Below are positions 3,418 to 17,301 of a stretch of 18,316 bases of DNA, piece by piece; position 1 is the stretch's first letter; each line of letters begins with the position of its first letter. Source of the DNA: Alistipes sp. (GTDB taxonomy: Bacteria; Bacteroidota; Bacteroidia; Bacteroidales; Rikenellaceae); assembly GCA_029051915.1 (NCBI GenBank), contig JAIDKM010000355.1:1-18316 (forward strand). Direction: 5' to 3'. The notes under the pieces were generated by a model. It searched no databases. It saw only the letters and a list, made by a program, of their open reading frames with translations, and was not told where the DNA came from. Made by a program: the position numbers and the translations under genes.

Positions 3418-3442
3418 TTCTCAGTTTTCAGTTCTCTTTCAG
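3415..3442 (-). repeat. Short A-rich gene-end repeat (copy 1)
   Basis: The minus strand carries GAACTGAAAACTGAGAA here, overlapping the last codons and stop of the upstream peptidase gene. It matches the copy in the last codons of rsmE (GAACTGAAAACCGAGAA) at 16 of 17 positions. Confidence 0.5.
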
Positions 3443-5548
3443 CCCCATCTTTTCGATCAGGGCCCGGGTTTCGGGTTTGTGGCCGCGGAAGCGGACATAG
3501 AGCGTCATCGGATCTTCCGTGCCTCCTTTCGAGAGGATGTTGTCGCGGAACGATCCCGAGACCTCGCGGTTGAAGATTCCCTTCTCCTTGAAGAGCGAGA
3601 AGGCGTCGGCTTCCAGCACCTCGGCCCATTTGTAGCCATAGTAACCGGCAGCGTATCCGCCGGCGAAGATGTGGCTGAACGAGGGTGCCATCGCCGTGCC
3701 TTCCACTGCGGGAAGCACCTGCGTCGGGGCCATCGATTCGCGTTCGAAAGCCACGACGTCGCCCTCGAACGGTTCGGCGATCGTATGCCAGGCCATGTCG
3801 GTCATGCCGAACGAAAGTTGCCGGACGTTGCCGTAGGCCGCCAGGAAGTTCTTGGCCGCCACGATGCTCTCCACCACCTCGGCCGGAATGGGTTCGCCCG
3901 TGCGGTAGTGCACGGCCCACAGGTCGAGGAACTCTTTTTCCGTCGCCCAGTTCTCCAGGATCTGCGAGGGCAGCTCCACGAAGTCGCGGTAGACGCTCGT
4001 GCCGGTCTGCGATTCGTAGCGGCCTTCGCCCAGCATGCCGTGGAGCGAGTGGCCGAATTCATGCAGGAAGGTCTCCACTTCGTCGAATGTCAGCAGCGAG
4101 GGAGTATCTTCGGTCGGCTTCGTGAAGTTCATCACCAGCGACACCAGCGGGCGCGTCTCCACGCCGTCTTCGATCTTCGCACCCCGGAATTCGGTCATCC
4201 AGGCTCCCGAGCGCTTCGATGCCCGGGGGAAGAAGTCGAGGTAGAGCACCGCCATGAAGCGGCCTTTCTCGTCGGTTACGTCGTAGGCCGTTACTTCGGG
4301 GTGGTAGACATCGATTCCGGTGTTGGGCGTGAAGTTGAGTCCGTAGAGTTTGTTCGCCAGCAGGAAGACTCCGTTCTTCACGTTTTCCAGCAGGAAGTAG
4401 GGTTTCACCACTTCGTCGTTGAGGGCATACTTCGCATCGCGGTATTTCTGGCTGTAGTAGGCCCAGTCCCACGGCATCAGCTCGCCTGCGAACCCGAGCG
4501 AGGCCGCGTAGTCGGCCACCGTCTTGCGGTCTTGGTCGGCGTAGGCTTTCGTCTCGTCGAGCAGTTCTTGCAGGAAGGCCGTTACCGTCGGCGTGTCGCC
4601 GGCCATGCGGCGCTCCAATACGTAGTCGGCATAGCAGTCGTAGCCCAGCAGGTTGGCGATCTTCAGACGCGTATTGGCGATCTTCTTCACGATCTCCGTG
4701 TTGTCGAACTCGCCGCCCAGCGCCCGCGAGTTGTAGGCGCGCCAGAGCTTCTCTTTCAGCTTGCGGTTCGACGAATAAGTCAGAAACGGCACATAGCTCG
4801 GGGCCTGCAGCGTTACCGTCCAGCCTTTTTCGCCGCGGGCCGCCGCTTCGGCCGCCAGTCCCTCCCGTACGAAAGCGGGCAGCTCGGCGACCTGGCGGGG
4901 ATCGGTGATGCGCAGCTCGAAGGCGTTGGTCGCCGCCAGCGCGTTCTGGCCGAACTTCAGCGTCAGCGCCGACAGTTCGTTGGTATACTGGCGGTAGAGT
5001 TCCTTGTCTTCGTCGTTGAGGGCCGCGCCGTTGCGGGCGAAGCGCTTGTAGGTATCTTCCAGCAGACGGATCTCCTCGATCGTTCCGGACCCCTTGCTCT
5101 CGTAGACGGCTTTCACGCGTTCGAACAGTGCGGGATTCAGCGAGATGTCGTTCGCGAGTTCGGTCAGCTTGGGCTGCACGCGCAGGGCGATCTCCTGCAT
5201 CTCGTCCGAGGCGTCGGCCTCCAGCAGGTTGTAGAAGATGCCCTCGATGCGGCCGAGCAGCGCACCGCTGCGCTCCAGCGCCACGATCGTGTTGCCGAAC
5301 GTCGGGCGGGCGGGGTTGGCGACGATCGCCTCGATCTCGGCACGCTGGCAGGCGATCGCCGCGTCGAAGGCGGGTTCGTAGTGGCGGAGCTCGATTTTCG
5401 AGAAGGGCGGCGTGGCGTGGGGCGTCTCCCACTCCGCCAGCAGAGGATTGGTCGTATCCAGCTCGGGCAGCTGGGCCCGGGGGATCGAGTTGTCGGCGCA
5501 TCCGGCCGCGAAGGCTGCAAAGGTCATAAGCCAAAGTGCTTTTTTCAT
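3428..5548 (-). CDS. dcp: M3 family metallopeptidase lipoprotein (peptidyl-dipeptidase Dcp-like), copy 2
   Basis: This 706-residue zinc peptidase is expected to remove dipeptides from the C-termini of short peptides. The N-terminus is a lipoprotein signal: basic start, hydrophobic stretch and lipobox ending FAAGC, with Cys17 as the lipidated residue. The mature enzyme should therefore be membrane-anchored on the periplasmic side. The zinc site is H496-E497-F498-G499-H500 with Glu525 (DFVELPSQ) as third ligand. The segment GGYAAGYYGYKWAEVL near the C-terminus is the substrate-lid region typical of Dcp/oligopeptidase A. Length matches Dcp (about 680-720). It is the second gene of a two-gene operon, 36 nt after its paralog. 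The final residues and stop (LKEN*) fall inside a short dispersed repeat. An oligopeptidase A-like cleavage preference cannot be excluded. Confidence 0.93.
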   Translation of the reverse strand: MKKALWLMTFAAFAAGCADNSIPRAQLPELDTTNPLLAEWETPHATPPFSKIELRHYEPAFDAAIACQRAEIEAIVANPARPTFGNTIVALERSGALLGRIEGIFYNLLEADASDEMQEIALRVQPKLTELANDISLNPALFERVKAVYESKGSGTIEEIRLLEDTYKRFARNGAALNDEDKELYRQYTNELSALTLKFGQNALAATNAFELRITDPRQVAELPAFVREGLAAEAAARGEKGWTVTLQAPSYVPFLTYSSNRKLKEKLWRAYNSRALGGEFDNTEIVKKIANTRLKIANLLGYDCYADYVLERRMAGDTPTVTAFLQELLDETKAYADQDRKTVADYAASLGFAGELMPWDWAYYSQKYRDAKYALNDEVVKPYFLLENVKNGVFLLANKLYGLNFTPNTGIDVYHPEVTAYDVTDEKGRFMAVLYLDFFPRASKRSGAWMTEFRGAKIEDGVETRPLVSLVMNFTKPTEDTPSLLTFDEVETFLHEFGHSLHGMLGEGRYESQTGTSVYRDFVELPSQILENWATEKEFLDLWAVHYRTGEPIPAEVVESIVAAKNFLAAYGNVRQLSFGMTDMAWHTIAEPFEGDVVAFERESMAPTQVLPAVEGTAMAPSFSHIFAGGYAAGYYGYKWAEVLEADAFSLFKEKGIFNREVSGSFRDNILSKGGTEDPMTLYVRFRGHKPETRALIEKMGLKEN

Positions 5549-5584
5549 GGTTCAGCGATGATTTTGGGGTTTCTTCGGTTTGTC

Positions 5585-7759
5585 TTATTCTTTCGGGGCG
5601 GGCAGTTCTTCGATCGGAGCGACTGCCAGCGAATCGGGCTCGGGCGCAGGTGCGGGGCGCTCCATCAAACCCCGCGCCACGAGCATCGCCGTCTTGTCGG
5701 GATCCTGCCCGCGGAAGGTGCGGTAGAGGGTCATGCCGTCCTCCGAACCGCCGCGCGAGAGGAGCCGGCGGAAGCGGGCGGCGGTCTGCTTGTCGAAGAG
5801 GTCGCCGCTCTGGCGGAACGCCTCGAAAGCATCCTTGTCGAGCACCTCGGCCCAGGTGTAGAAGTAGTAGCCGGCCGAGTATCCGCCGTCGAAGATGTGG
5901 CTGAAGTAGGGATAGCGGTAGCGCGGCTCGATCTGCGGAATCAGGCCCCGTTTTTCGTGGAGCGCATGGCGCTCGAAAGCCTCGACGTCGAACGGCTCGT
6001 AGTGCTCGATGGAGTGGATGTCCATGTCCGAAAGCGACGCGGCGATGAGCTCCGTGGTGGCGAAGCCCTGGTTGAAGAGGGTGCTGCGCCGCAGCTTCTC
6101 GACCAGCGCGGCGGGAATCACCTCGTCGGTGCGATAGTGCACGGCGTAGTGCTTCAGCATCTCGGGCTCGAACGCCCAGTTCTCCATCACCTGCGAGGGC
6201 AGCTCCACGAAGTCGCCCTCGACCTCGGAGAGGCCGCGGTACTTCACGTCGTGGAACAAGAAGTGGAGCGCATGGCCGAACTCGTGGAAGATCGTGCCGG
6301 CCTCGTCGAGCGTCAGCAGCGCGGGCGTATTGCGTGTGGGGCGCGTGAAGTTGGCGACGATCGAGACGACGGGAGCGATGCGGGCGCCCTGGTCGTCGTA
6401 GCCCTGCTCCACGTAGTAGCCGCACCAGGCGCCCTGGCTCTTGCCCTCGCGCGGGAAGTAGTCGAAGTAGACGATGCCCAGATGCGACTCGTCGGCGTCG
6501 AGCACCTCGTAGGCCGTAACCTCGGAGTGGTAGACCGGCACGGCGACGGGCCGGAACGTGATGCCGTACAAGCGGTTGGCCAGGAAGAAGACGCCCGTCT
6601 GCACGTTCTCCAGCGAGAAGTAGGGCGTGAGCATCTCCTCGTCGAGCGAGTAGTTTTTCTTACGCAGCTTCTCGGCGTAGTACCACCAGTCCCACGACGC
6701 GAACTCCCCGTCGGGGTAGTCGGCCTTGAAAAGCTCCTCCATCTCGGCCAGCTCGCCTTGGGCCCGTTCGAGCGCCGGAGTCCAGATCTCGTTGAGCAGG
6801 GAGTAGACCGCGGCGGGCGTGCCGGCCATCTGGTCGTCGGTAACGTAGGCGGCGTAGGAGGGGTAGCCCAGGAGATGGGCTTTCTCGGCGCGCAGCCGCA
6901 CGAAGTCGTTGACCAGCTGCCGGTTGTCGAACTCGTCGCCGTGGCTGCCGCGGCCGAGGTAGGCCTTGTAGACCGTTTCGCGCAGGTCGCGGCGCTTCGA
7001 ATAAGTGAGCAACGGGAGCATGCTGGGTTTGTGGAGCGTGAAGACGTATTTCCCGCTGCGGCCCATCTCCTGCGCCTTGTCGCGTGCCAGATCGCGGGCG
7101 TTGGAGGGGATGCCGTCGAGATCGTCGGCCGTGAGTTCGAGGACGAAGTTGTTGTTCTCGGCCAGGAGATTGGCCCCGAACTTCACGGAGACGAGCGCCA
7201 GCTCCTCGTTGATCTCCTTCAACCGGGCCTTCTGCGCCTCGTCGAGCAAGGCTCCCGAGCGGACGAAGCTGCGGTAGGTCTTCTCCAGGAGCCGGCTTTC
7301 GTCGGGGCCCAGTCCGAGCTCCCGGCGCCGGTCGTAGACCGATTTGACTTTCTCGAACAACGACGCGTTCATGCCGATCTTGTCGGCGTGGGCGGTCAGC
7401 AGAGGCATGGCCTGCTCCTGCAAGGCGCGCAGCTCCTCGCTGCTCTCGGCCTCGCAGAGCATGCCGAAGACCAGCCCGACCTGCGAGAGCATCCGCCCCG
7501 AACGGTCGTAGGCGAGGATGACGTTTTCGAACGTGGGTTCGTCGTGGTTGCCGACGATGGCATCGATCTCGGCGTCGTGGAGCGAGATGCCCCGCTCGAA
7601 GGCGGGCATGAAGTGCGCCGGCACGATCCGGTCGAAAGGAGGCACGCCGTAGGGCGTATCCCATGCGGAGAAAAAGGGATTCTCCGCGGTTTTCTTCTCC
7701 GAAGTGCAAGATCCGAACATAAGCAGAGCGAGTGTTGCGAACGATACGATACGTTTCAT
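5585..7759 (-). CDS. dcp: M3 family metallopeptidase lipoprotein (peptidyl-dipeptidase Dcp-like), copy 1
   Basis: This 724-residue paralog of the following gene has the same architecture and cleaves small peptides at the cell envelope. Its signal peptide ends in a lipobox-like FGSC with Cys18. The zinc site is H492-E493-F494-G495-H496 (FHEFGHALHF), with Glu519 in GDFVELPSQ as third ligand. GGYSAGYYFYTWAEVL forms the C-terminal substrate region. Unlike its neighbour, it ends in a Pro/Ala/Glu-rich tail (about residues 697-724) outside the catalytic fold. It is the promoter-proximal gene of the pair, divergent from rsmE. Duplication followed by divergence is the simplest explanation. Whether the two differ in substrate range cannot be seen. 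Confidence 0.93.
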   Translation of the reverse strand: MKRIVSFATLALLMFGSCTSEKKTAENPFFSAWDTPYGVPPFDRIVPAHFMPAFERGISLHDAEIDAIVGNHDEPTFENVILAYDRSGRMLSQVGLVFGMLCEAESSEELRALQEQAMPLLTAHADKIGMNASLFEKVKSVYDRRRELGLGPDESRLLEKTYRSFVRSGALLDEAQKARLKEINEELALVSVKFGANLLAENNNFVLELTADDLDGIPSNARDLARDKAQEMGRSGKYVFTLHKPSMLPLLTYSKRRDLRETVYKAYLGRGSHGDEFDNRQLVNDFVRLRAEKAHLLGYPSYAAYVTDDQMAGTPAAVYSLLNEIWTPALERAQGELAEMEELFKADYPDGEFASWDWWYYAEKLRKKNYSLDEEMLTPYFSLENVQTGVFFLANRLYGITFRPVAVPVYHSEVTAYEVLDADESHLGIVYFDYFPREGKSQGAWCGYYVEQGYDDQGARIAPVVSIVANFTRPTRNTPALLTLDEAGTIFHEFGHALHFLFHDVKYRGLSEVEGDFVELPSQVMENWAFEPEMLKHYAVHYRTDEVIPAALVEKLRRSTLFNQGFATTELIAASLSDMDIHSIEHYEPFDVEAFERHALHEKRGLIPQIEPRYRYPYFSHIFDGGYSAGYYFYTWAEVLDKDAFEAFRQSGDLFDKQTAARFRRLLSRGGSEDGMTLYRTFRGQDPDKTAMLVARGLMERPAPAPEPDSLAVAPIEELPAPKE

Positions 7760-8743: not shown

Positions 8744-10732
8744 ATGCTTTTTCTTTACACGCTACTGATTCTGACGGTCGTTGCCGCCGCCATTTTTGCG
8801 GCGCCGCCGAAAGCCAAAGCCTGGACGGCGCTGACGATCACGGCGGCAGCGGGCATCGCCCTGGCGACCCGGGCCGCGGAAGTGCTGGCCGCGGGGCACC
8901 CCGTCCGCCTGTGGAACACCGTGTCGCCGCTGCCGGGCCCCGACACCGGGTCGATGGACTCGCTGTCGGCGTTCTTCGTGCTGCTGATCGTGCTCGGAGC
9001 CATTGCGGCGACGCTCTACTCGCGCGGCTATCTTGCCCACGCCCTGGCTCACAAATCGCCGGCCCACGTCTCGCTGCACTACACCTCGCTTGTGGTCATG
9101 TCGCTCTCGATGCTGGGCGTCGTAACGTCGGACGGCGGATTCTCGTTCCTCTTTTTCTGGGAACTGATGACCGTGGCCTCGTTCCTGCTGATTCTTTTCG
9201 ATGCCGAACGCCGCGAAGTGCGCCGTGCGGCCCTCTCGTACCTGATTATGATGCACGTGGGATTCGTGCTCCTGGTCGTGGGATTCGTCCGCCTGCACGC
9301 GGCGACGGGCTCGGCCTCGTTCGCCGCGCTGGCGCCCATGTTCGCCGAGGGGCCGTTCCTGCCGCTGTTCCTTGTTTTCCTGGCGGGATTCGGCATGAAA
9401 GCGGGTCTTTTCCCGATGCACGTATGGCTGCCCGAAGCCCATCCTGCGGCCCCGTCGCATGTCTCGGCGCTGATGTCGGGCGTGATGATAAAAACAGGCG
9501 TATACGGCATTCTGCGTGTGGCGGCGGCCCTGGGCGATGCGGCGTCGCTCCGCACGGCGGGGCTGATCGTCCTTGCGGCGGGCATCGCCACGGGGCTGTG
9601 GGGCGTGATTCTGGCCGCCTCGCAGAACGACGTGAAGCGGCTGCTGGCCTACTCGTCGATCGAAAACGTCGGCGTGATTCTGATCGGTCTGGGCATCGCC
9701 CTCTTAGGCAAGGCTGCGGGAAACCACACGATGGCCCTCTGCGGAATCGCCGGAGCCCTGCTCCACACCCTCAACCACTCGTTTTTCAAGACCCTGCTCT
9801 TCATGGGTGCGGGCAACGTCCTGACGCAGACCCGCACCACCTCGCTCGACGCACTGGGCGGAGTGGCGAAGCAGATGCCCCTGACGGCGCTGCTCTTTCT
9901 GGTCGGCGCGGCCGCCATCTGCGCCCTGCCGCCGCTCAACGGACTGGTCTCGGAGCTGCTGATCTACATGGGCATGTTCCGGGGAATCGCTGCGGGAAGC
10001 GAGACCCTCGCCGCGGCCGCGGGACTGACGGCGCTGGCGCTGATCGGAGGAATCGTGGTGCTGGCTTTCGCCAAACTGTACGGCACGGTCTTCCTCGGGT
10101 CGCCCCGAACGCCGGAAGCGGTCGAAGCGACGGAAGCGGACAACGTACGCATCGCGGCGATGGCCCTGCCGCTGGCGGGCATACTCTTCGTAGGGCTCTT
10201 CCCGGCGACGGCGGCGGGTCTGGCGACCCGGGCGGCGGGATTCTTCGTGGCGACGCCCGCCGTGGCGGCCGACTACCTGCTCTCGCCGACCCTTGAAGCC
10301 GCAGGCCGAACGGCATGGCTCCTCGTGGCGGTCGTGGCCCTGCTGGCCTGGCTGCGCCGCCGCACGCTGCGCGGACGGAAAGTCGAGCAAGGCCCCACGT
10401 GGGGCTGCGGATTCACGGCCCCCAACGTGCGGATGCAATACACGGGCGAATCGTTTTCGGAAGGATTGCAGTCGATCGTCCCGTCGCTCACCCGCCAGGA
10501 CGGCGAAGGCGACGCGGTAGGCAAAAACGAGATATTCCCCTCGGCCCACGGCTTCGAGATCCGCCGCAAAGACCGCATAGACAACCTGTTCGCGGCGTGG
10601 TGGGTCGAACTGCTGCGCCAGATGAACCGCCGGGCGATGCGCCTGCGGACGGGCAAGATCAACCACTACCTGCTCTTCGCGCTGGCGTTCCTGGGGCTGG
10701 TATTCCTGCTTTCGATACTTAATCTGCTCTGA
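8744..10732 (+). CDS. hyfB: Hydrogenase-4-like antiporter subunit HyfB/HycC
   Basis: This 662-residue inner-membrane subunit belongs to the NuoL/MrpA/D-type ion-pumping family, in the form found in Hyc/Hyf-type complexes. Expected functional residues are present: Glu140 in FFWELMT, Lys219 in FGMKAGLFPMHVWLPEAHP and Lys250 in SGVMIKTGVYG. The core antiporter domain spans about 110-420. The C-terminal part contains PTWGCGF, followed by SIVPSLTRQ and a last helix, as in HycC/HyfB rather than NuoL. Length matches the family (about 610-670). It is the first gene of the complex operon. The stop codon overlaps the hyfC ATG (TGATG at 10730-10734). It should move H+ or Na+; which ion cannot be read. 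Confidence 0.92.
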   Translation: MLFLYTLLILTVVAAAIFAAPPKAKAWTALTITAAAGIALATRAAEVLAAGHPVRLWNTVSPLPGPDTGSMDSLSAFFVLLIVLGAIAATLYSRGYLAHALAHKSPAHVSLHYTSLVVMSLSMLGVVTSDGGFSFLFFWELMTVASFLLILFDAERREVRRAALSYLIMMHVGFVLLVVGFVRLHAATGSASFAALAPMFAEGPFLPLFLVFLAGFGMKAGLFPMHVWLPEAHPAAPSHVSALMSGVMIKTGVYGILRVAAALGDAASLRTAGLIVLAAGIATGLWGVILAASQNDVKRLLAYSSIENVGVILIGLGIALLGKAAGNHTMALCGIAGALLHTLNHSFFKTLLFMGAGNVLTQTRTTSLDALGGVAKQMPLTALLFLVGAAAICALPPLNGLVSELLIYMGMFRGIAAGSETLAAAAGLTALALIGGIVVLAFAKLYGTVFLGSPRTPEAVEATEADNVRIAAMALPLAGILFVGLFPATAAGLATRAAGFFVATPAVAADYLLSPTLEAAGRTAWLLVAVVALLAWLRRRTLRGRKVEQGPTWGCGFTAPNVRMQYTGESFSEGLQSIVPSLTRQDGEGDAVGKNEIFPSAHGFEIRRKDRIDNLFAAWWVELLRQMNRRAMRLRTGKINHYLLFALAFLGLVFLLSILNLL

Positions 10733-11649
10733 TGATGACAGCACTCAATACACTGTTTCTGCTGCTGGTGGCGCTCGCCGTGCCGGGAGTCATCAACCGG
10801 GTGCGGGCCCGCCTGGCCGGACGCCGGGGCATCCGTTTCCTGCAGCACCTCTACGATCTGCGCCTGCGCCTGCGCAAAGGCGCCGTCTACTCGCGGACGA
10901 CCACGGCCCTCTTCCGCACGGCACCCTCGGTCTACCTGGGTGCGGCGATCGTGGCGGCGCTGATGATTCCGGTGGGCGACCTGCGGCCGCTGCTGGCGTT
11001 CGAGGGCGACGTCGTCTGCCTGGCCTACGTGCTGGCGCTGGGCCGCTTCGCCCTGATTCTGGCCGCGATGGACACCGGAAGCGCCTTCGAAGGGATGGGC
11101 GCGAGCCGCGAAGCCCTCTACGGAGCGCTGGTGGAACCGGCCCTGATGCTGGCGGCGGGAACCCTCGCCCTGGCGACGGGCTGCACCTCCTTCGCCCGCA
11201 TGTTCGATCCGGCGGCGCTGCCCGGCACGCAGTTCGCCGTCGTCCTGCTGCTGCTGACCTACGTGCTGGTGAAGATCGTCATCACGGAGAGCGGCCGCGT
11301 ACCGGTCGACGACCCGCGCACGCACCTGGAACTGACGATGATCCATGAAGTGATGTGTCTGGACTACTGCGGCGTGGATCTGGCGATGATCCAACTGGCG
11401 GGATGGCTCAAGACGGCCCTCTTTTCGCTGCTGGCGGCCGACACGCTGGCCGCGACGTGCTGCCTGCACTGGTGGGCGGCGGCCCCGCTGGCCGTGGCGC
11501 TGACGGGGATCTCGGTCGGCGTAGTCGAATCGACGCAGGCCCGCAACAAACTGGCCCGCAACACCACTTACATACTTACCGTCGCGGCGCTGGCAGCCCT
11601 GGCCTTCTTCACGGGCTACCTGCTGCGACTCAACATCGGACTGGCATGA
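10732..11649 (+). CDS. hyfC: Hydrogenase-4-like membrane subunit HyfC/HycD (NuoH-like)
   Basis: This 305-residue membrane protein is homologous to complex I NuoH and E. coli HycD. It anchors the soluble catalytic arm and links it to the antiporter subunits. Motifs are RRGIRFLQHLYDLRLRLRKG (31-50), the MGASREALYGALVEP loop (122-136), and GRVPVDDPRTHLELTMIHE (188-206), the signature of the family, followed by WLKTALFSLLAAD (225-237). ATG at 10732 overlaps the hyfB stop; a second ATG at 10735 is an alternative start. The stop overlaps the hyfE start by four bases (ATGA), so translation is probably coupled. Confidence 0.9.
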   Translation: MMTALNTLFLLLVALAVPGVINRVRARLAGRRGIRFLQHLYDLRLRLRKGAVYSRTTTALFRTAPSVYLGAAIVAALMIPVGDLRPLLAFEGDVVCLAYVLALGRFALILAAMDTGSAFEGMGASREALYGALVEPALMLAAGTLALATGCTSFARMFDPAALPGTQFAVVLLLLTYVLVKIVITESGRVPVDDPRTHLELTMIHEVMCLDYCGVDLAMIQLAGWLKTALFSLLAADTLAATCCLHWWAAAPLAVALTGISVGVVESTQARNKLARNTTYILTVAALAALAFFTGYLLRLNIGLA

Positions 11650-12275
11650 TTCTTCCGTTAGTGATTCTTTATGTCGTGTCGCTCGTCTATCTGTCGATCA
11701 CCGAGCGATTCCGCAACTTCGCCTCGATCGTCATGCTGCAAGGCATCCTGCTCTTCGCGATCGCCCTGCTGCACCTGCACGCCATTGCACCGCTCGAACT
11801 GGCGTTCATTGCGCTGGAAACCCTGATATTCAAGGCGATTCTTGTGCCGGCGATCCTTTTTGCCGTGATCCGCCGCACGAAGATCAACCGCGTACGCACG
11901 TCGGGAACCTCGCAGTTCCATGCGCTGCTGCTCTCGCTGGCGGCCCTGGCGGTGAGCATCTCGATCACCTACTGCATCGCCGATCCGACGGTCGACCCGG
12001 TCTTCTTCGGCGTGGCCCTCTACGCCCTGCTGAGCGGGCTGGTGCTGATCGTCCTGCGGCAGCGGCTGTTCTCCCACATGGTCGGATTCCTGGTGATCGA
12101 AAACGGCGTATTCCTTTTCTCGACGGCCATAGGCGTGGAGATGCCCTTCCTGATAAACATCGCCATTCTGCTGGACATTCTGATGTCGGTGCTGATGCTG
12201 GGCGTCTTCTTCACCAAGATCGACGACAAGATCCACGCCGACGATGCCGATTCGCTCACCAACGTAAAAGACTGA
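11646..12275 (+). CDS. hyfE: Hydrogenase-4-like membrane subunit HyfE
   Basis: This 209-residue protein has about six or seven hydrophobic segments. It is similar in length and position to HyfE, whose C-terminal part is NuoK-like. The stretch FLVIENGVFLFSTAIGVEMPFLINIAILLDILMS carries the acidic residues expected in the NuoK-like half. The start is fixed by the ATGA overlap with hyfC. A much longer upstream extension in the same frame is only the shadow of hyfC. HyfE is present in Hyf-type but not Hyc-type E. coli complexes, which places this operon nearer the Hyf design. The gap to hyfF is 4 nt. Confidence 0.88.
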   Translation: MILPLVILYVVSLVYLSITERFRNFASIVMLQGILLFAIALLHLHAIAPLELAFIALETLIFKAILVPAILFAVIRRTKINRVRTSGTSQFHALLLSLAALAVSISITYCIADPTVDPVFFGVALYALLSGLVLIVLRQRLFSHMVGFLVIENGVFLFSTAIGVEMPFLINIAILLDILMSVLMLGVFFTKIDDKIHADDADSLTNVKD

Positions 12276-12279
12276 CGCC

Positions 12280-13686
12280 ATGATGATCGCAATCTATCTA
12301 CTGCTCTCGGCGGCTGTCGCCGTGTCGACCCTGGCGGCCCGGAGCCGCCGCACGATGCACCTGGCCGGATCGCTCTACTACCTGATTCAGGCCCTGTTTG
12401 CACTCTGGCTGCTGGCCGGAGGCGGGTACGGCCGGGCGGCGGGCACGCTCTTCGAATTCGACGCGGCGGGCACGCTTTTCTACATCCTGCTGGCGATCGT
12501 CTCGTTCTGGGTATTCCACCACTCGGAGACCTACCTTTCGGAGTGCGACCAACGTCAGACGAGAACCTACTTTGCGCTGGCGATGCTGCTGACGACGGCC
12601 ATCGCGGGCGCCTATTTCGCCTCGAACATCGCCGTAACGTGGATCTTCCTCGAAGCGACGACTCTCTGCTCGGCGGGCATCATCTACCACCGCCGCACGG
12701 CCCAGACGCTCGAAGCGGCGTGGAAATACGTGTTCGTCTGCTCGACGGGCATCGCGATGGCCTACCTGGGCATTCTGCTGCTGGCCGCGACGACGAAGTG
12801 CGAATCGCTCTCCTACGAAGCGGTGGCCGCCGTGGCGGCGCAAGGCAACCCGCTCTACCTGAAGATCGCCTTCCTGCTGATTCTCTGCGGCTACAGCTGC
12901 AAGATGGAGCTTTTCCCGCTCTACACGGTAGGCGTCGACGCCAATTTCGCGGCCCCGGCTCCTGCCTCGGCGCTGATCTCGACGGGACTGGTCAATGCGG
13001 GATTTCTGGCGATCCTGCGCGTATACCGCCTGCTGGCCGGGACGGAAGTATTCGGCTGGGCGAAGTCGGTGCTGCTGCTGACGGGCGTGCTGTCGCTGGC
13101 GATCGGAGCCCTCTTTCTGCGCCGCACGAACAACTACAAACGTTTTCTCTCCTACTCGACGGTCGAAAACATGGGAATCGCCGCCATCGGCCTGGGCATC
13201 GGCGGCGCCGGCGTGTGGGCCGCGGTATTCCATGTGGTCTGCCACACGTTCGTCAAGAGCAGCCTGTTCCTGCAGATGGGCGTGGTGCGCCAGGTGTACA
13301 ACGGCTACCGCATCAACCGTCTGGGCGACTACATCCGCATCAACCGCGTGGGAGCCGTCGGCCTGCTGGTCGGCATGGTCGTGGTGATGGCCTTCCCGCC
13401 CTCGCCCCTCTTCATCTCGGAGCTGATGATCCTGCGCGAGACGATCGCGGCGGGCAAATGGTGGCTGGTGGCCGCGATGCTGCTCCTGCTCTGCATCGTG
13501 ATCTACTCGTTCTGCCTGCGCATGATCCGTCTCTGCTACCAACCCAATCAGGATGAACTCCACCCCTCGAAAGCCGACAAGGCCCTGTCGTGGTCGGCGC
13601 TGCTTCTGCTGCTGTGCGCCATGATTCTGGGACTCTGGCAACCCGAAGCGCTCCGCACCGTCATCGATCAAATCGCCGCATTATGA
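12280..13686 (+). CDS. hyfF: Hydrogenase-4-like antiporter subunit HyfF
   Basis: This 468-residue second antiporter-type subunit is NuoN/MrpD-like. The expected charged residues are visible: Glu125 in WIFLEATTLCSAG, Lys149 in AAWKYVFVCS and Lys208 in GYSCKMELFPLYTVGVDA. APAPASALISTGLVNAGFLAILR (225-247) matches the discontinuous helix of the family. The length is close to HyfF. The gene starts 4 nt after hyfE and ends in an ATGA overlap with hyfG. With HyfB it gives the complex two potential ion channels. No HyfD-like third antiporter gene is present. Confidence 0.9.
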   Translation: MMIAIYLLLSAAVAVSTLAARSRRTMHLAGSLYYLIQALFALWLLAGGGYGRAAGTLFEFDAAGTLFYILLAIVSFWVFHHSETYLSECDQRQTRTYFALAMLLTTAIAGAYFASNIAVTWIFLEATTLCSAGIIYHRRTAQTLEAAWKYVFVCSTGIAMAYLGILLLAATTKCESLSYEAVAAVAAQGNPLYLKIAFLLILCGYSCKMELFPLYTVGVDANFAAPAPASALISTGLVNAGFLAILRVYRLLAGTEVFGWAKSVLLLTGVLSLAIGALFLRRTNNYKRFLSYSTVENMGIAAIGLGIGGAGVWAAVFHVVCHTFVKSSLFLQMGVVRQVYNGYRINRLGDYIRINRVGAVGLLVGMVVVMAFPPSPLFISELMILRETIAAGKWWLVAAMLLLLCIVIYSFCLRMIRLCYQPNQDELHPSKADKALSWSALLLLLCAMILGLWQPEALRTVIDQIAAL

Positions 13687-15197
13687 ACTGGTATCTGACA
13701 GACAACGCCGCCGCCTCGGTGCGGCTCGAAGATATTCCGGAAGTCGGCTATGCCGAATTCTACGACGACCTGTCGGCCCGCCTGGCCGACGGACGCTACC
13801 ATGTAGCCCACTATTTTGCCCTGCCGGCGGACGACCGCCTGCGTTTCTACTGCCTGCTGCTGGACGACGCGGAAAGCAAGGTACTGCTGGCCTCGCACTC
13901 GCTGGAATACTATGAAGAGACGGCGCTCCCGTCGCTGACGGCCCTGCATCCGTCGCTCCATCCCTTCGAACGCGACATAGCCGAACGCTACGGAGTGCGC
14001 TTCGACGGTATGCCGTGGCCCAAGCCGCTGCGCTTTCCCCACGACCGCTACGACCGCAGCAGCACGATGGACGACTACCCGTTCTATACGATGAAGGGAG
14101 GCTCGCTCCACGAAGTGAACGTAGGCCCCATTCATGCGGGAATCATCGAACCGGGAGCCTTCCGCTTCCTCTGCAACGGCGAAGAAGTGCTGCATCTGGA
14201 GATCGCCCTGGGCTATCAACACCGGGGTGTCGAAGCCCTGCTGGCGGCGACCGGCAACCGCCTGCGGCAGATGTGTCTGGCGGAAGCGGTGGCGGGCGAC
14301 AGCGCCGTGGCCCATGCCACGGCCCTGGCGGAAGCGATCGAGAAACTTTCGGGCCGCGGATGCCCGCCGGAGCTGGCCTGCGAACGCACGGTGGCCCTCG
14401 AACTGGAACGCATGGCGATGCAGATCGCCGACACGGGAGCCCTCTCGATGGACGTGGGCTACCAACTGGGCCAGGTGGCCTGCGAAGCGCTCCGCACGAT
14501 GACGATCAACACCACGCAGGCGTGGTGCGGAAACCGTTTCGGCAAAGGGCTGATCCGTCCCGGAGGCACCGACCACCCGCTGACGGCGGAGAAAGTGCGC
14601 ATGATCCGCGAAAATGTCCGCGAGATCGCCCGCCGCTACGATGAGGTGCGCCGCGACATCAAGTCGTCGCCCTCGCTGCTGGCCCGATTCGAAGAGTGCG
14701 GCGCGGTGCCGCGCGAAGAGATGCAACGCATCGGCGGAGTAGGACAGGCGGCCCGCGCGAGCGGCCTGGCGCGAGACCTCCGAACCACGCATCCCTGGCC
14801 CTCGTACGCGGGGCCGAGACCCCACGATCCGGTGATCAAGCGGCAAGGCGACGTGATGGCCCGGCTGATGGTGCGCTGCCGCGAAGTCCTGCAATCGGCG
14901 GAGATCATCGGGAAGCTGCTGGCGGAATACGATGCGGCGGGAACCCGGCCGTCGCCCGACTACGCGGCGCCGCTGGCCCCGCGATCGCTCTCGTTCGGGC
15001 TGGTGGAAGGATGGCGCGGCGAGACGTGCCACGTAGCGATCACCGACGCCGAAGGAGGCCTGGCCGCCGTGCGGATCAAAGACCCGAGCCTGCACAACTG
15101 GCTGGCGCTGGCGCTGGCCGTACGCGGCGAAGGAATCTCGGACTTCCCGATCTGCAACAAGAGCTTCAACCTTTCCTACTGCGGACACGACCTCTGA
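13683..15197 (+). CDS. hyfG: HycE/HyfG-like large subunit lacking the [NiFe] cysteines
   Basis: This 504-residue soluble-arm protein has a NuoC-like domain (about 1-125, with ERDIAERYGVRF at 96-107) and a NuoD/HycE-like domain (about 140-504). Homology is clear at GPIHAGIIEPGAFRF, LGYQHRGVE, RASGLARD and the C-terminus. The L1 box (RxCGxC in hydrogenases) reads A202-V-A-G-D-S207, and the L2 box (DPCxxC) reads N496-L-S-Y-C-G501. All four metal-binding cysteine positions are therefore replaced (A204, S207, S498, G501). The protein ends three residues after L2, with no tail for a maturation protease. It cannot hold an ordinary [NiFe] site. This fits the Ehr class of hydrogenase-related complexes. 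The start at 13683 is set by the ATGA overlap with hyfF. Confidence 0.88.
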   Translation: MNWYLTDNAAASVRLEDIPEVGYAEFYDDLSARLADGRYHVAHYFALPADDRLRFYCLLLDDAESKVLLASHSLEYYEETALPSLTALHPSLHPFERDIAERYGVRFDGMPWPKPLRFPHDRYDRSSTMDDYPFYTMKGGSLHEVNVGPIHAGIIEPGAFRFLCNGEEVLHLEIALGYQHRGVEALLAATGNRLRQMCLAEAVAGDSAVAHATALAEAIEKLSGRGCPPELACERTVALELERMAMQIADTGALSMDVGYQLGQVACEALRTMTINTTQAWCGNRFGKGLIRPGGTDHPLTAEKVRMIRENVREIARRYDEVRRDIKSSPSLLARFEECGAVPREEMQRIGGVGQAARASGLARDLRTTHPWPSYAGPRPHDPVIKRQGDVMARLMVRCREVLQSAEIIGKLLAEYDAAGTRPSPDYAAPLAPRSLSFGLVEGWRGETCHVAITDAEGGLAAVRIKDPSLHNWLALALAVRGEGISDFPICNKSFNLSYCGHDL

Positions 15198-15209
15198 CGA
15201 AAAGAAAAA

Positions 15210-15231
15210 TGAAGAATTAAAAATTAAAAAT
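15210..15231 (+). repeat. Short A-rich gene-end repeat (copy 3)
   Basis: GAAGAATTAAAAATTAAAAA lies 13 nt after the hyfG stop. It shares the GAAGAA-T-AAAA pattern of the gene-end repeat. Its AATTAAAAATT (15215-15225) is the perfect reverse complement of AATTTTTAATT (15283-15293), making an 11-bp inverted repeat inside the otherwise tightly packed operon. Confidence 0.45.
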
Positions 15232-15303
15232 CGGAATCCGGAGCCCCCTGAGCCCTGCTTTTTCGAATATGCACCAGAAAATAATTTTTAATTACGGCAA
15301 GCT

Positions 15304-16068
15304 ATGATTTTCCCGAAAATAAAGGTACTGCGCAGCCACGGCAAACAATACATCCCCGACCTGGATGCGGTGGAGCTGACGACCGAATTCCGAGGCCGCC
15401 CGGAGCTGACGGCCGACGACGACCGCACCGACCTGGAGCGTGCGGCGGCGATCTGTCCGACGGGGGCCCTGACGGCCGAACCCTTCGAACTGGATCTGGG
15501 CCGCTGCATCTTCTGCGGCGAATGTGCCCGCCGGGCCCCGCGCAACATCCGATTTACGAACGACTACCGTCTCGGCTCGCCGACGCGCGAAGGACTGGTG
15601 ATGCGCCCGGGGCAGCAGCGCGTGGAGTTCGAGCAGGCGGCCGTGCGGCCGGAGATCCGCCGCTGCTTCGGCCGTGCGCTGCAACTGCGCGAAGTGTCGG
15701 CCGGAGGCGACGCCTCGGTGGAGATGGAACTGGGAGCCACGGGCAACGTCAACTTCGACTTCGGCCGCTACGGCGTGGGCTTCACGGCCTCGCCCCGCCA
15801 TGCCGACGGAGTAGTCGTTTCGGGCCCCGTTACGGCCAACATGGCCGAAGCGCTCGAAATTTGCTACGAAGCGGTGGCGGAGCCCAAGATCGTGGTGGCC
15901 TGCGGCACGGACGCCTGCTCGGGCGGACTTTTCGCCGGAAGCCGGGCGCTGGACCGCACGTTCTTCGAACGCCACGAAGTCGACCTGTGGCTGCCGGGAG
16001 CCCCGACCCACCCGATGATCTTCATCGACGGGATCCGCACCCTGCTGGGCCACAAACGACGCGAATAA
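15304..16068 (+). CDS. Ferredoxin-small-subunit fusion (HycG/HyfI/NuoB-like) lacking proximal-cluster cysteines
   Basis: This 254-residue protein joins a shortened ferredoxin domain (about 1-85) to a NuoB/HycG-like domain (about 125-250). The ferredoxin part keeps C68-x2-C71-x2-C74 plus Cys51-Pro52. That is the ligand set for one [4Fe-4S] cluster, while the second cluster's cysteines are absent (Ala78-Pro79 replaces CP). The small-subunit part aligns well with HycG (YGVGFTASPRHAD, SGPVT, PKIVVACG, SGGLF, LPGAP). The four cluster-ligand places are D136 and V139 (CxxC), D203 (GxC) and A233 (PGCP), so the proximal cluster cannot form in the usual way. Cys200 and Cys205 lie off register. The gene begins 106 nt after hyfG, across a repeat-bearing gap. 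No gene symbol fits the fusion exactly; HyfI is the nearest. Confidence 0.85.
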   Translation: MIFPKIKVLRSHGKQYIPDLDAVELTTEFRGRPELTADDDRTDLERAAAICPTGALTAEPFELDLGRCIFCGECARRAPRNIRFTNDYRLGSPTREGLVMRPGQQRVEFEQAAVRPEIRRCFGRALQLREVSAGGDASVEMELGATGNVNFDFGRYGVGFTASPRHADGVVVSGPVTANMAEALEICYEAVAEPKIVVACGTDACSGGLFAGSRALDRTFFERHEVDLWLPGAPTHPMIFIDGIRTLLGHKRRE

Positions 16069-16138: not shown

Positions 16139-16732
16139 ATGCAAACGCTTCTGGTCATCTTCGGCTCGTTCTTCAAGATCGGACTTTTCACCTTCGGCGG
16201 CGGATATGCGATGATTCCGCTGATCGAACGCGAAGTGATCGACCGCCGGGGTTGGGTGGAGCGGCGCGAATTTCTGGACCTGCTGACCTTGGCCCAATCG
16301 GTCCCGGGTCCCATAGCGGTCAACACGGCGGTCTTCGTGGGCTACCGCATGCGCGGGGTGCGGGGTGCGCTGGCGGCCCTGTGGGGCACGATCCTGCCCT
16401 CGTTCACGATCATCCTGCTCATAGCGCTCTTCTTCGCCGACATCCGGCACAATCCGGTAGTGGACGCGGCGTTCAAGGGGATGCGCCCGGCGGTGGTGGC
16501 GCTGATCATCGGTCCGGTCGTCTCGCTGGCGCGGGGCATGCGCTGGCCGATGTTCGCAGTGATAGCCGCGGCGGCGCTGGCGATCTGGGGGCTGGGCTGG
16601 TCGCCCGTCTACGTGCTGGCCGCAGCGGCCGCAGCGGGAATCGGGTGGGAACTGGCTGTGGCCGGAAAAGCCGGGAAACGACGGCAGCACCCTGCCGAAA
16701 AGCCGGAAAATGCAAATTCTGAACTGAAATGA
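16139..16732 (+). CDS. chrA: Chromate transporter family protein, short (single-domain) form, subunit 1
   Basis: This 197-residue membrane protein is a single CHR domain. Motifs are FKIGLFTFGGGYAMIPLIE (12-30) and AQSVPGPIAVNTAVFVGYR (about 55-73), the paired signature of the family. Five to six hydrophobic segments follow. Short CHR proteins come as adjacent pairs that are believed to work together. The partner follows with an ATGA overlap at 16729-16732. Characterised members export chromate; the natural substrate of anaerobe homologs is unknown. Residues after about 178 are hydrophilic and end in NANSELK, which stems from a gene-end repeat. The gene lies 70 nt after the hydrogenase-like operon and may be co-transcribed with it. 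Confidence 0.9.
   Translation: MQTLLVIFGSFFKIGLFTFGGGYAMIPLIEREVIDRRGWVERREFLDLLTLAQSVPGPIAVNTAVFVGYRMRGVRGALAALWGTILPSFTIILLIALFFADIRHNPVVDAAFKGMRPAVVALIIGPVVSLARGMRWPMFAVIAAAALAIWGLGWSPVYVLAAAAAAGIGWELAVAGKAGKRRQHPAEKPENANSELK
16708..16732 (+). repeat. Diverged gene-end repeat (copy 4)
   Basis: AATGCAAATTCTGAACTGAA at the 3' end of the first chr gene supplies its last codons. It resembles the A-rich repeat seen at the ends of rsmE and the downstream peptidase gene (shared GAACTGAA), but only over a short length. Confidence 0.3.
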
Positions 16733-17301
16733 TCCTCTGGCAACTCTTCGTCAGCTATCTGAAAATCGGATTTTTCGGATTCGGCGGCGGCTACGCCATG
16801 CTCTCGCTCATCCAAAACGAAGTGGTCGTGCAGCACGGCTGGATGACCAACGCCCAATTCGCCGACATCGTGGCCGTGTCGCAGATCACGCCGGGGCCGA
16901 TCGCCATCAACTCGGCGACCTACGTAGGCTATACCGTCGGGTCGCAGCTGGGCCACCCGGGATGGGGAATCCTCGGCTCGGCCGTGGCCACGCTGGCGGT
17001 CTGCCTGCCGTCGCTGACACTGATGATGCTGGTGGCGCGCTTCTTTCTCAGGCTCAAGGGCAACCGCCTTGTCGAAGGGGCCATGCGCGGCATGCGCCCG
17101 GTGGTCATCGGCATGATTGCAGCGGCGGCCCTGCTGCTGATATTCCCCCGCAGCGACAACCCCGACGACCGCAACTTCATCGACGGCTGGAGCTGGGCCC
17201 TCTTTGCGGCCGTGCTCGTCGGCTCGTGGCGCAAGGTCAACCCCATTCTGCTGATCTGCCTTTCGGCCGCGGCGGGGATAGCAGTCTACTATGTATTTTA
17301 G
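16729..17301 (+). CDS. chrA: Chromate transporter family protein, short (single-domain) form, subunit 2
   Basis: This 190-residue partner of the preceding gene is also one CHR domain. It shows YLKIGFFGFGGGYAMLSLIQ (10-29) and SQITPGPIAINSATYVGYTV (about 51-70), with the rest mostly hydrophobic. The start is set by the ATGA overlap, which implies coupled translation and probably a heterodimer. Substrate specificity is unproven for these short forms; chromate or another oxyanion is possible. No terminator with a T run follows. The next 300 nt are repeat-rich. Confidence 0.9.
   Translation: MILWQLFVSYLKIGFFGFGGGYAMLSLIQNEVVVQHGWMTNAQFADIVAVSQITPGPIAINSATYVGYTVGSQLGHPGWGILGSAVATLAVCLPSLTLMMLVARFFLRLKGNRLVEGAMRGMRPVVIGMIAAAALLLIFPRSDNPDDRNFIDGWSWALFAAVLVGSWRKVNPILLICLSAAAGIAVYYVF

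Follow-up and report, generated by a model that had tools for sequence, protein, structure and literature searches.

The locus described here raises the question of how a membrane-bound complex of the complex I superfamily would work when its small subunit lacks every cysteine ligand of the proximal [4Fe-4S] cluster. The window, by which we mean the whole analysed stretch of 18,316 nucleotides, carries a six-gene operon on its plus strand (8744-16068), with products like HyfB, HyfC, HyfE, HyfF, HyfG and HyfI/HycG. From family profile matches and alignment to relatives, these are an antiporter-like, HyfB/NuoL-like subunit (8744-10732), a NuoH/HyfC-like membrane subunit (10732-11649), a HyfE-like membrane subunit (11646-12275), an antiporter-like, HyfF-like subunit (12280-13686), a HyfG/HycE/NuoCD-like large subunit without NiFe ligands (13683-15197) and a small subunit (15304-16068). 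The last of these, the product of the final gene of the operon, comprises 254 residues, in which a ferredoxin domain (~1-100) is fused to a NuoB/HycG-like domain (~115-250; PF01058, E 1.5e-17; PF13459, E 2.5e-6). Close named homologues among the matches listed are annotated as Alistipes sp. (91% and 89% identity). It reaches 78.1 bits against the curated NCBIfam cut-off of 116 for NuoB, and the large subunit stays far under the curated NuoD cut-off; a family profile search found no N-module of complex I among the window proteins scanned. The six genes occur in the same order in all four loci of the window's clade that were drawn, and outside the genus a comparison of neighbours found no gene beyond these six common to at least four clade loci. 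Judged from its sequence, the operon encodes a complete six-subunit complex of the known Ehr family (energy-converting hydrogenase-related complexes) in an Alistipes-like host. The name Ehr is said to come from Coppi, Marreiros and colleagues. Two genes of the chromate-transporter family lie directly downstream (16139-17301), and genes of this cluster are present in 8 of 16 genus loci compared, the window among them. On the minus strand, two adjacent long genes (3428-7759) resemble oligopeptidase/dipeptidyl carboxypeptidases from a reading of their translation, and are perhaps a tandem duplication.

An earlier note on this DNA held that the small subunit has lost all its proximal-cluster cysteines. 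Alignment to relatives, which have all four, confirms this: the places of ligands 1 to 4 read D136 (15709-15711), V139 (15718-15720), D203 (15910-15912) and A233 (16000-16002), all on the plus strand. In the ferredoxin domain a single set of cluster cysteines survives in the alignment, made up of C51 (15454-15456, plus strand) and of C68, C71 and C74 in the motif CIFCGEC (15505-15525, plus strand). These four cysteines are kept in all 30 rows of the order set (29 order loci and the window) and in 66 of 66 Bacteroidales sequences with coverage, including the three that have four proximal cysteines. A comparison of window positions 15304-15600 with the loci L035, L036, L037, L042, L044 and L046 indicates that cluster loss in Ehr is graded: there are Ehr with the first ferredoxin motif and the proximal cysteines, Ehr without the first motif, and the present clade, which is also without the proximal cysteines. 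Another cysteine of the small subunit, C200, lies three residues before the lost third ligand and is found in 30/30 of the genus set, where C205 is present in 21/30. A cluster held by shifted cysteines (C187, C200, C205) was rejected as an explanation for the clade: in the order set, with the window counted, C200 occurs in just 3/30 and C205 in 1/30. Within the genus such a cluster might exist. Assembly or sequencing error was rejected as well, given that 36 genus loci agree and that a second allele bears out places 3 and 4. On another contig of the same assembly (G000:C228, 4442-4747) there is a second end of the small-subunit gene, 94% identical, so the assembly probably mixes two strains.

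The large subunit is without the four NiFe cysteines. AGDS (14292-14303; residues 205-208 counted from base 13680) and SYCG (15174-15185; residues 499-502 in the same count) align with the first and second NiFe CxxC on the plus strand, which bears out what the note had said of missing NiFe ligands, yet this trait defines the known Ehr. HypD is needed for NiFe assembly. It was found neither in the window's genome (82% complete) nor in any of 12 genus genomes, and it is present in 4 of the 13 non-genus Bacteroidales carriers tested. In the accessible portions of the literature, Ehr complexes are already known, as is their lack of NiFe ligands (PMC10284858, PMC12342949, PMC6349859, PMC7304191, PMC4378227), and redox coupling is suspected for them (PMC6349859). 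These portions do not name the proximal cysteines as a defining trait of Ehr. A search of that literature, with the founding Ehr papers outside its scope, found no description of proximal-cluster loss in Ehr in the text available. What is new here is the replacement of the proximal cysteines by acids across one Ehr clade; loss of the NiFe ligands alone is not new.

The ligand change extends well beyond the window. Among the best 120 of 5236 protein matches, place 136 is D (116) or E (4), place 203 is E (88) or D (32), place 139 is V in 119 and place 233 is A, V, T, N, S or L. The best 120 of 7999 matches in a second search (P0121-P0240) have the quartet D-C-D-N in 111 cases, and acids occupy places 1 and 3 in all 240 of these best-listed proteins. 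In the 30 rows of the order set, 136 is D in 28 and E in 2, 139 is C in 22, and 203 and 233 are D and N, respectively, in 29 each. Ligand places were read for 69 Bacteroidales sequences, matches weaker than E 5e-18 being taken as NuoB and left unread: 66 are of the acid type (one a fragment with places 3 and 4 only) and three have four cysteines. D-C-D-N is found in 46 of these 69, and among the order's 65 clade sequences with full coverage 49 still have Cys as ligand 2. Three further order places down to E 5e-18 lie outside the 69, namely a ferredoxin piece with no ligand place (L263), a clade-type fragment whose places 3 and 4 read D and N (L264) and a differently built protein that has four cysteines and no ferredoxin domain (L265). 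Within the genus, place 136 is D and place 203 either D or E at all 36 loci; V or I stands for ligand 2 in 35/36, and A or T for ligand 4 in 35/36, with one gap. A genus fragment (L266) has E at place 3. Loci L004, L007 and L015, flagged with stops, were omitted from alignment A1 but included in the counts. The complex is present in 38 of 61 genus genomes and, at E 1e-50, in 67 of 295 order genomes (both counted from the listing).

Outside the order, 15 of 16 sequences from other Bacteroidota lineages have four cysteines and one (L034) is of the acid type; these 16 represent all places outside the order at E below 1e-40. A wide scan of named genomes confirmed 577 relatives; of the best 80, ordered by similarity to a single sequence, 79 have four cysteines in the small subunit, and because of this selection the counts are not frequencies. 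A viral collection yielded one weak partial relative only. Surveyed across homologues, as the earlier note had proposed, the ligand change is thus conserved as a class (66/69 Bacteroidales sequences, 36/36 genus loci), and we hold it almost certain that the clade has lost its proximal-cluster ligands. For the four replacements taken singly, conservation holds in part: places 1 and 3 are acidic throughout the clade wherever covered (D or E at place 3), but V139 and A233 mainly characterise the genus, outside which most of the clade has C at place 2 and N at place 4, mostly as D-C-D-N. Outside the genus N233 is nearly as conserved as D203.

Loss of ligands resembles decay at first sight, and the note had reckoned with a degenerating copy. 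Four-cysteine relatives of the kind that this would call for were found (15/16 other Bacteroidota, 3/69 Bacteroidales), but they lie outside the clade. The median dN/dS of the genus small-subunit genes is 0.19 (132 usable of 435 pairs; 0.139 against the nearest), and because it is this low the gene is not decaying; it is under purifying selection. At the 80% level, only positions 136, 203 and 233 of the small subunit distinguish the clade (31 members) from cysteine-type Ehr on its branch (44 sequences); seven positions do so in the large subunit. A separation limited to the ligand places is unlike a decaying pocket. That the Ehr operon is a decaying relic is further contradicted by the order of the six genes in four clade loci, by full membrane genes in 23/24 order and 14/15 genus loci, and by the conservation of the replacements in 66 sequences from the order and 36 from the genus. 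The dN/dS values and the clade-wide conservation refute this reading for the clade, and we give it next to no chance.

We used trees of both peripheral subunits to place the loss. A quick tree of the large subunit (89 rows), which makes no use of the changed columns, groups the acid type as one clade (SH-aLRT 88) with the four-cysteine locus L035 as its sister (clade plus L035, SH-aLRT 100). In the same tree, which took in relatives of other phyla and was built without the reference Ehr sequences named in papers, 79 rows without NiFe ligands group at 97, and 58 rows including a sequence of Geobacteraceae (L133) group at SH-aLRT 100. A second tree, of 44 small-subunit rows and with its ligand columns masked, recovers the acid-type clade at 97/93; the three Bacteroidales copies with four cysteines fall outside that clade. 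A four-cysteine sister together with four-cysteine copies outside the clade implies that, with the root outside, the Ehr with cysteines is the older form and the ligands disappeared once, in a Bacteroidales-centred clade. The three divergent four-cysteine Ehr (L247, L248, L249) come from Bacteroidales genomes of families in which other genomes have the clade type. L034, a clade-type copy in a genome placed outside the window's class, is nested among Bacteroidales copies and reflects transfer or contamination.

A second case was found in Chloroflexota. The sole exception without four cysteines among the best 80 of 577 relatives is L083, from a Chloroflexota genome, and a search of its class (29 genomes) recovered four more acid-type loci (L202-L205). 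The five quartets read DCED, DCED, DTED, DADD and DADD, and ligand 2 thus varies in this lineage (C, C, T, A, A). In L083 (8013-8855) and L202-L205, acids at the proximal-cluster places occur beside NiFe-type cysteines in the large subunit: both motifs are kept in four, and the fifth, a fragment, has the C-terminal motif. HypD was found in 1/5 of these Chloroflexota genomes, which are of unstated completeness. A plasmid search with the L083 protein found only relatives below 60% identity. Grouping the Chloroflexota five with the Bacteroidales clade, as a single origin would require, was rejected by the AU test (p-AU 5e-57). Because this joint grouping is rejected, the same kind of carboxylate replacement arose twice independently, every member seen having acids at places 1 and 3.

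The choice of residues brings up the main rival to the reading that we prefer, namely that the site retains a metal, now with carboxylate ligation (Asp, Asp/Glu, Asn and often one Cys), either as a mononuclear or unusual Fe-S relay or as a Mg, Ca, Mn or Fe cation. The replacements are mostly metal-binding residues placed exactly at the old ligand places, as in the 111 of 120 D-C-D-N quartets (best of 7999 matches), a similar choice arose twice, and the neighbouring ferredoxin cluster is kept. A single natural Asp at a proximal place occurs in M. barkeri and G. metalloreducens and can be functional, according to the available part of PMC4070099. Against such a site, the genus leaves just two carboxylates, ligand 2 being V or I and ligand 4 A or T (35/36 each, one gap at the latter), and ligand 2 is variable in the Chloroflexota lineage too. 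In one NiFe hydrogenase many single Asp ligands are tolerated, but no multiply substituted enzyme tested is reported as active in that same part of PMC4070099. We consider a retained metal site unlikely, though a good deal more than a formality.

The preferred reading, to which we give about an even chance, is that the window's complex is an Ehr with a cut electron path, in which a carboxylate pair would stand in for the charge of the cluster and the membrane arm would keep its channel Lys and Glu. Because the proximal cluster is gone, electrons from the ferredoxin cluster would find no relay near enough to the old active site. The earlier note's claim that this path is cut is supported at the level of sequence, the change being conserved as a class. 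R182 of the HRGxE motif of the large subunit (14223-14225, plus strand; placed by alignment and by PMC8042128) is Arg in 30/30 clade large subunits; the cysteine-type rows have Arg in 45 and Lys in 31. The complex I counterpart of this residue lies 3.7 A from cluster N2, as given in the accessible part of PMC8042128, where Yarrowia complex I lacking N2 is described as assembled in a native-like way with its quinone reductase activity lost. For earlier Yarrowia R141 mutants, partial activity had been reported in the absence of an N2 signal; PMC8042128, in the same part, disputes this reading. It is the assembled but inactive N2-less enzyme, the inactivity of the multiply substituted hydrogenases tested and the invariant Arg that together lead us to propose that carboxylates replace the charge: the D136-D203 pair, facing the Arg of HRGxE, would take over the negative charge and packing of the cluster. 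Both peripheral subunits would still assemble on the membrane arm but could not pass electrons. The complex might then move ions (H+, perhaps against Na+ or K+) via its pair of antiporter-like subunits, with an ion gradient as the driving force or with gating that does not depend on electrons reaching the former active site, and the remaining ferredoxin cluster might be structural or a redox sensor. The complex is probably an ion translocator and not an oxidoreductase.

The kept ferredoxin ligands also allow for an electron path that survives otherwise, with a quinone or a bound cofactor taking electrons directly from the remaining ferredoxin cluster. In formate hydrogenlyase, inter-cluster distances are below 14 A and the proximal cluster is the last step (PMC9474812, in the part available); once this link is removed, the gap should be too long. 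The lost quinone reductase activity of N2-less Yarrowia complex I (PMC8042128, likewise in part) speaks against this route as well, and we regard it as very improbable.

Ion translocation by a cut Ehr would call on the membrane arm, which we compared across those clade loci whose genes are full, 23 from the order and 14 from the genus. E140, K219, K250, K349 and E404 of HyfB are unchanged in 23/23 order and 14/14 genus loci (K298 in 22/23 order loci), as are E125, E145, K149, K208, K287, K326 and E381 of HyfF, E135, E186, E200 and E206 of HyfC (D193 in 23/23 and 13/14) and K61 and E150 of HyfE. The channel Lys/Glu and the E-channel-like acidic residues are thus kept in the clade. Some polar positions differ: HyfF 215 is Y or F in 17/23 order loci and Y in 11/14 genus loci, with H in 11/12 cysteine-type copies; HyfF 297 is N in 14/14 genus loci, H prevailing elsewhere; and HyfE 169 is N in 23/23 order and 14/14 genus loci, the cysteine-type copies having E in 8 and N in 4.

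SulP transporters move a wide range of anions. Genes for them occur inside or beside Ehr operons in L046 (6921-9137), L043 (759-2492) and L035 (7614-9398), with L046 encoding a SulP-STAS-EIIA_2 fusion inside the operon. Their presence beside cysteine-type Bacteroidota Ehr (6/12 loci) fits the possibility that the large-subunit pocket (GD[TS]..H and NKSFNLSYCGHD), whose motifs recur over many phyla, catalyses a non-redox reaction, for example on CO2/bicarbonate, coupled to ion flow, as in DAB. DAB2, where a NuoL-like subunit belongs to a non-redox complex, is a working precedent (PMC13144422, in the part available). Yet no SulP was seen near any of the 37 clade loci (21 + 16; flanks incomplete in some), SulP is found in just 3/80 loci of other phyla (best 80 of 577 relatives), and a family profile search matched none of the six operon proteins to a carbonic-anhydrase family, which makes such a reaction improbable. 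An HTH_17-PTS_EIIA_2 gene often lies upstream of the HyfB-like gene in the cysteine-type Ehr loci drawn, directly so in L104 (696-1397), L085 (738-1472), L042 (2317-2988) and L039 (2636-3316). EIIA was found at 10/12 cysteine-type Bacteroidota loci, one fused to SulP counted, and at 18/80 others (best 80 of 577); its protein is possibly a dedicated Ehr regulator. EIIA_2, like SulP, was not seen at the 21 + 16 clade loci (flanks incomplete in some). These gene associations hint that Ehr complexes serve ion or anion homeostasis.

Several observations weigh against the reading of a cut Ehr that translocates ions. An entirely non-redox complex has no obvious need of the ferredoxin cysteines that are kept; ligand 2 remains Cys in 49/65 sequences, HypD is present in 4/13 carriers, the Chloroflexota copies have NiFe-type cysteines, polar residues of the membrane arm differ and the complex is patchily present. 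In complex I, how electron transfer at N2 and quinone is coupled to distant proton channels is an open question. The clade offers a natural experiment, since in a complex I-like machine under purifying selection the N2 ligands have become carboxylates, and did so twice; it bears on what a peripheral arm does without electrons and on the role of Ehr complexes. The ligand swap across the clade and in an unrelated lineage suggests a complex I-like machine that may no longer work by moving electrons. A broader idea, which we advance tentatively and would put somewhat short of even, is that of a complex I-superfamily machine without electron transfer at its core, in which the N2/proximal place was turned twice into a carboxylate fixed-charge or proton/cation-loading switch on an intact ion-pumping arm.

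Among known systems, group 4 [NiFe] hydrogenases are recognised by four NiFe cysteines and four proximal [4Fe-4S] cysteines, and the window has neither set. It differs in the same two respects from E. coli formate hydrogenlyase and hydrogenase-4 (HycG/HycE, Hyf), and has one ferredoxin cysteine set in place of two. With respiratory complex I (NuoB/NuoD/NuoH/NuoL) it shares the fold, the HRGxE Arg and the charged membrane-arm residues, but it is without the N2 cysteines, its small and large subunits lie far under the NCBIfam cut-offs, and no N-module is among the scanned proteins. NiFe hydrogenases with a natural Cys-to-Asp change have an Asp at a proximal ligand place, as the window does; there a single ligand is changed and the cluster is thought to remain, according to the available part of PMC4070099, whereas here three or four places are changed. 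The DAB2 vectorial carbonic anhydrase has a NuoL-like subunit working without redox chemistry (PMC13144422, in the part available), but its cytoplasmic partner is of another kind and it has no homologous peripheral arm. The Chloroflexota group-4-like complex (L083, L202-L205) resembles the window's clade in having carboxylates at ligand places 1, 3 and 4, and differs in its NiFe-type large-subunit cysteines and its separate origin. With the Ehr of Geobacter, Nitrospira and Riflemargulisbacteria the window shares the kinds of subunit, the antiporter-like membrane arm and a large subunit without NiFe ligands; it has no NiFe CxxC, encodes NuoL-, NuoH- and HyfE-like arm subunits in one cluster, and groups with Ehr of other phyla. 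The other Ehr examined keep the four proximal-cluster cysteines (15/16 in other Bacteroidota, 79/80 among the best of 577), and the window's clade is set apart from them by their loss.
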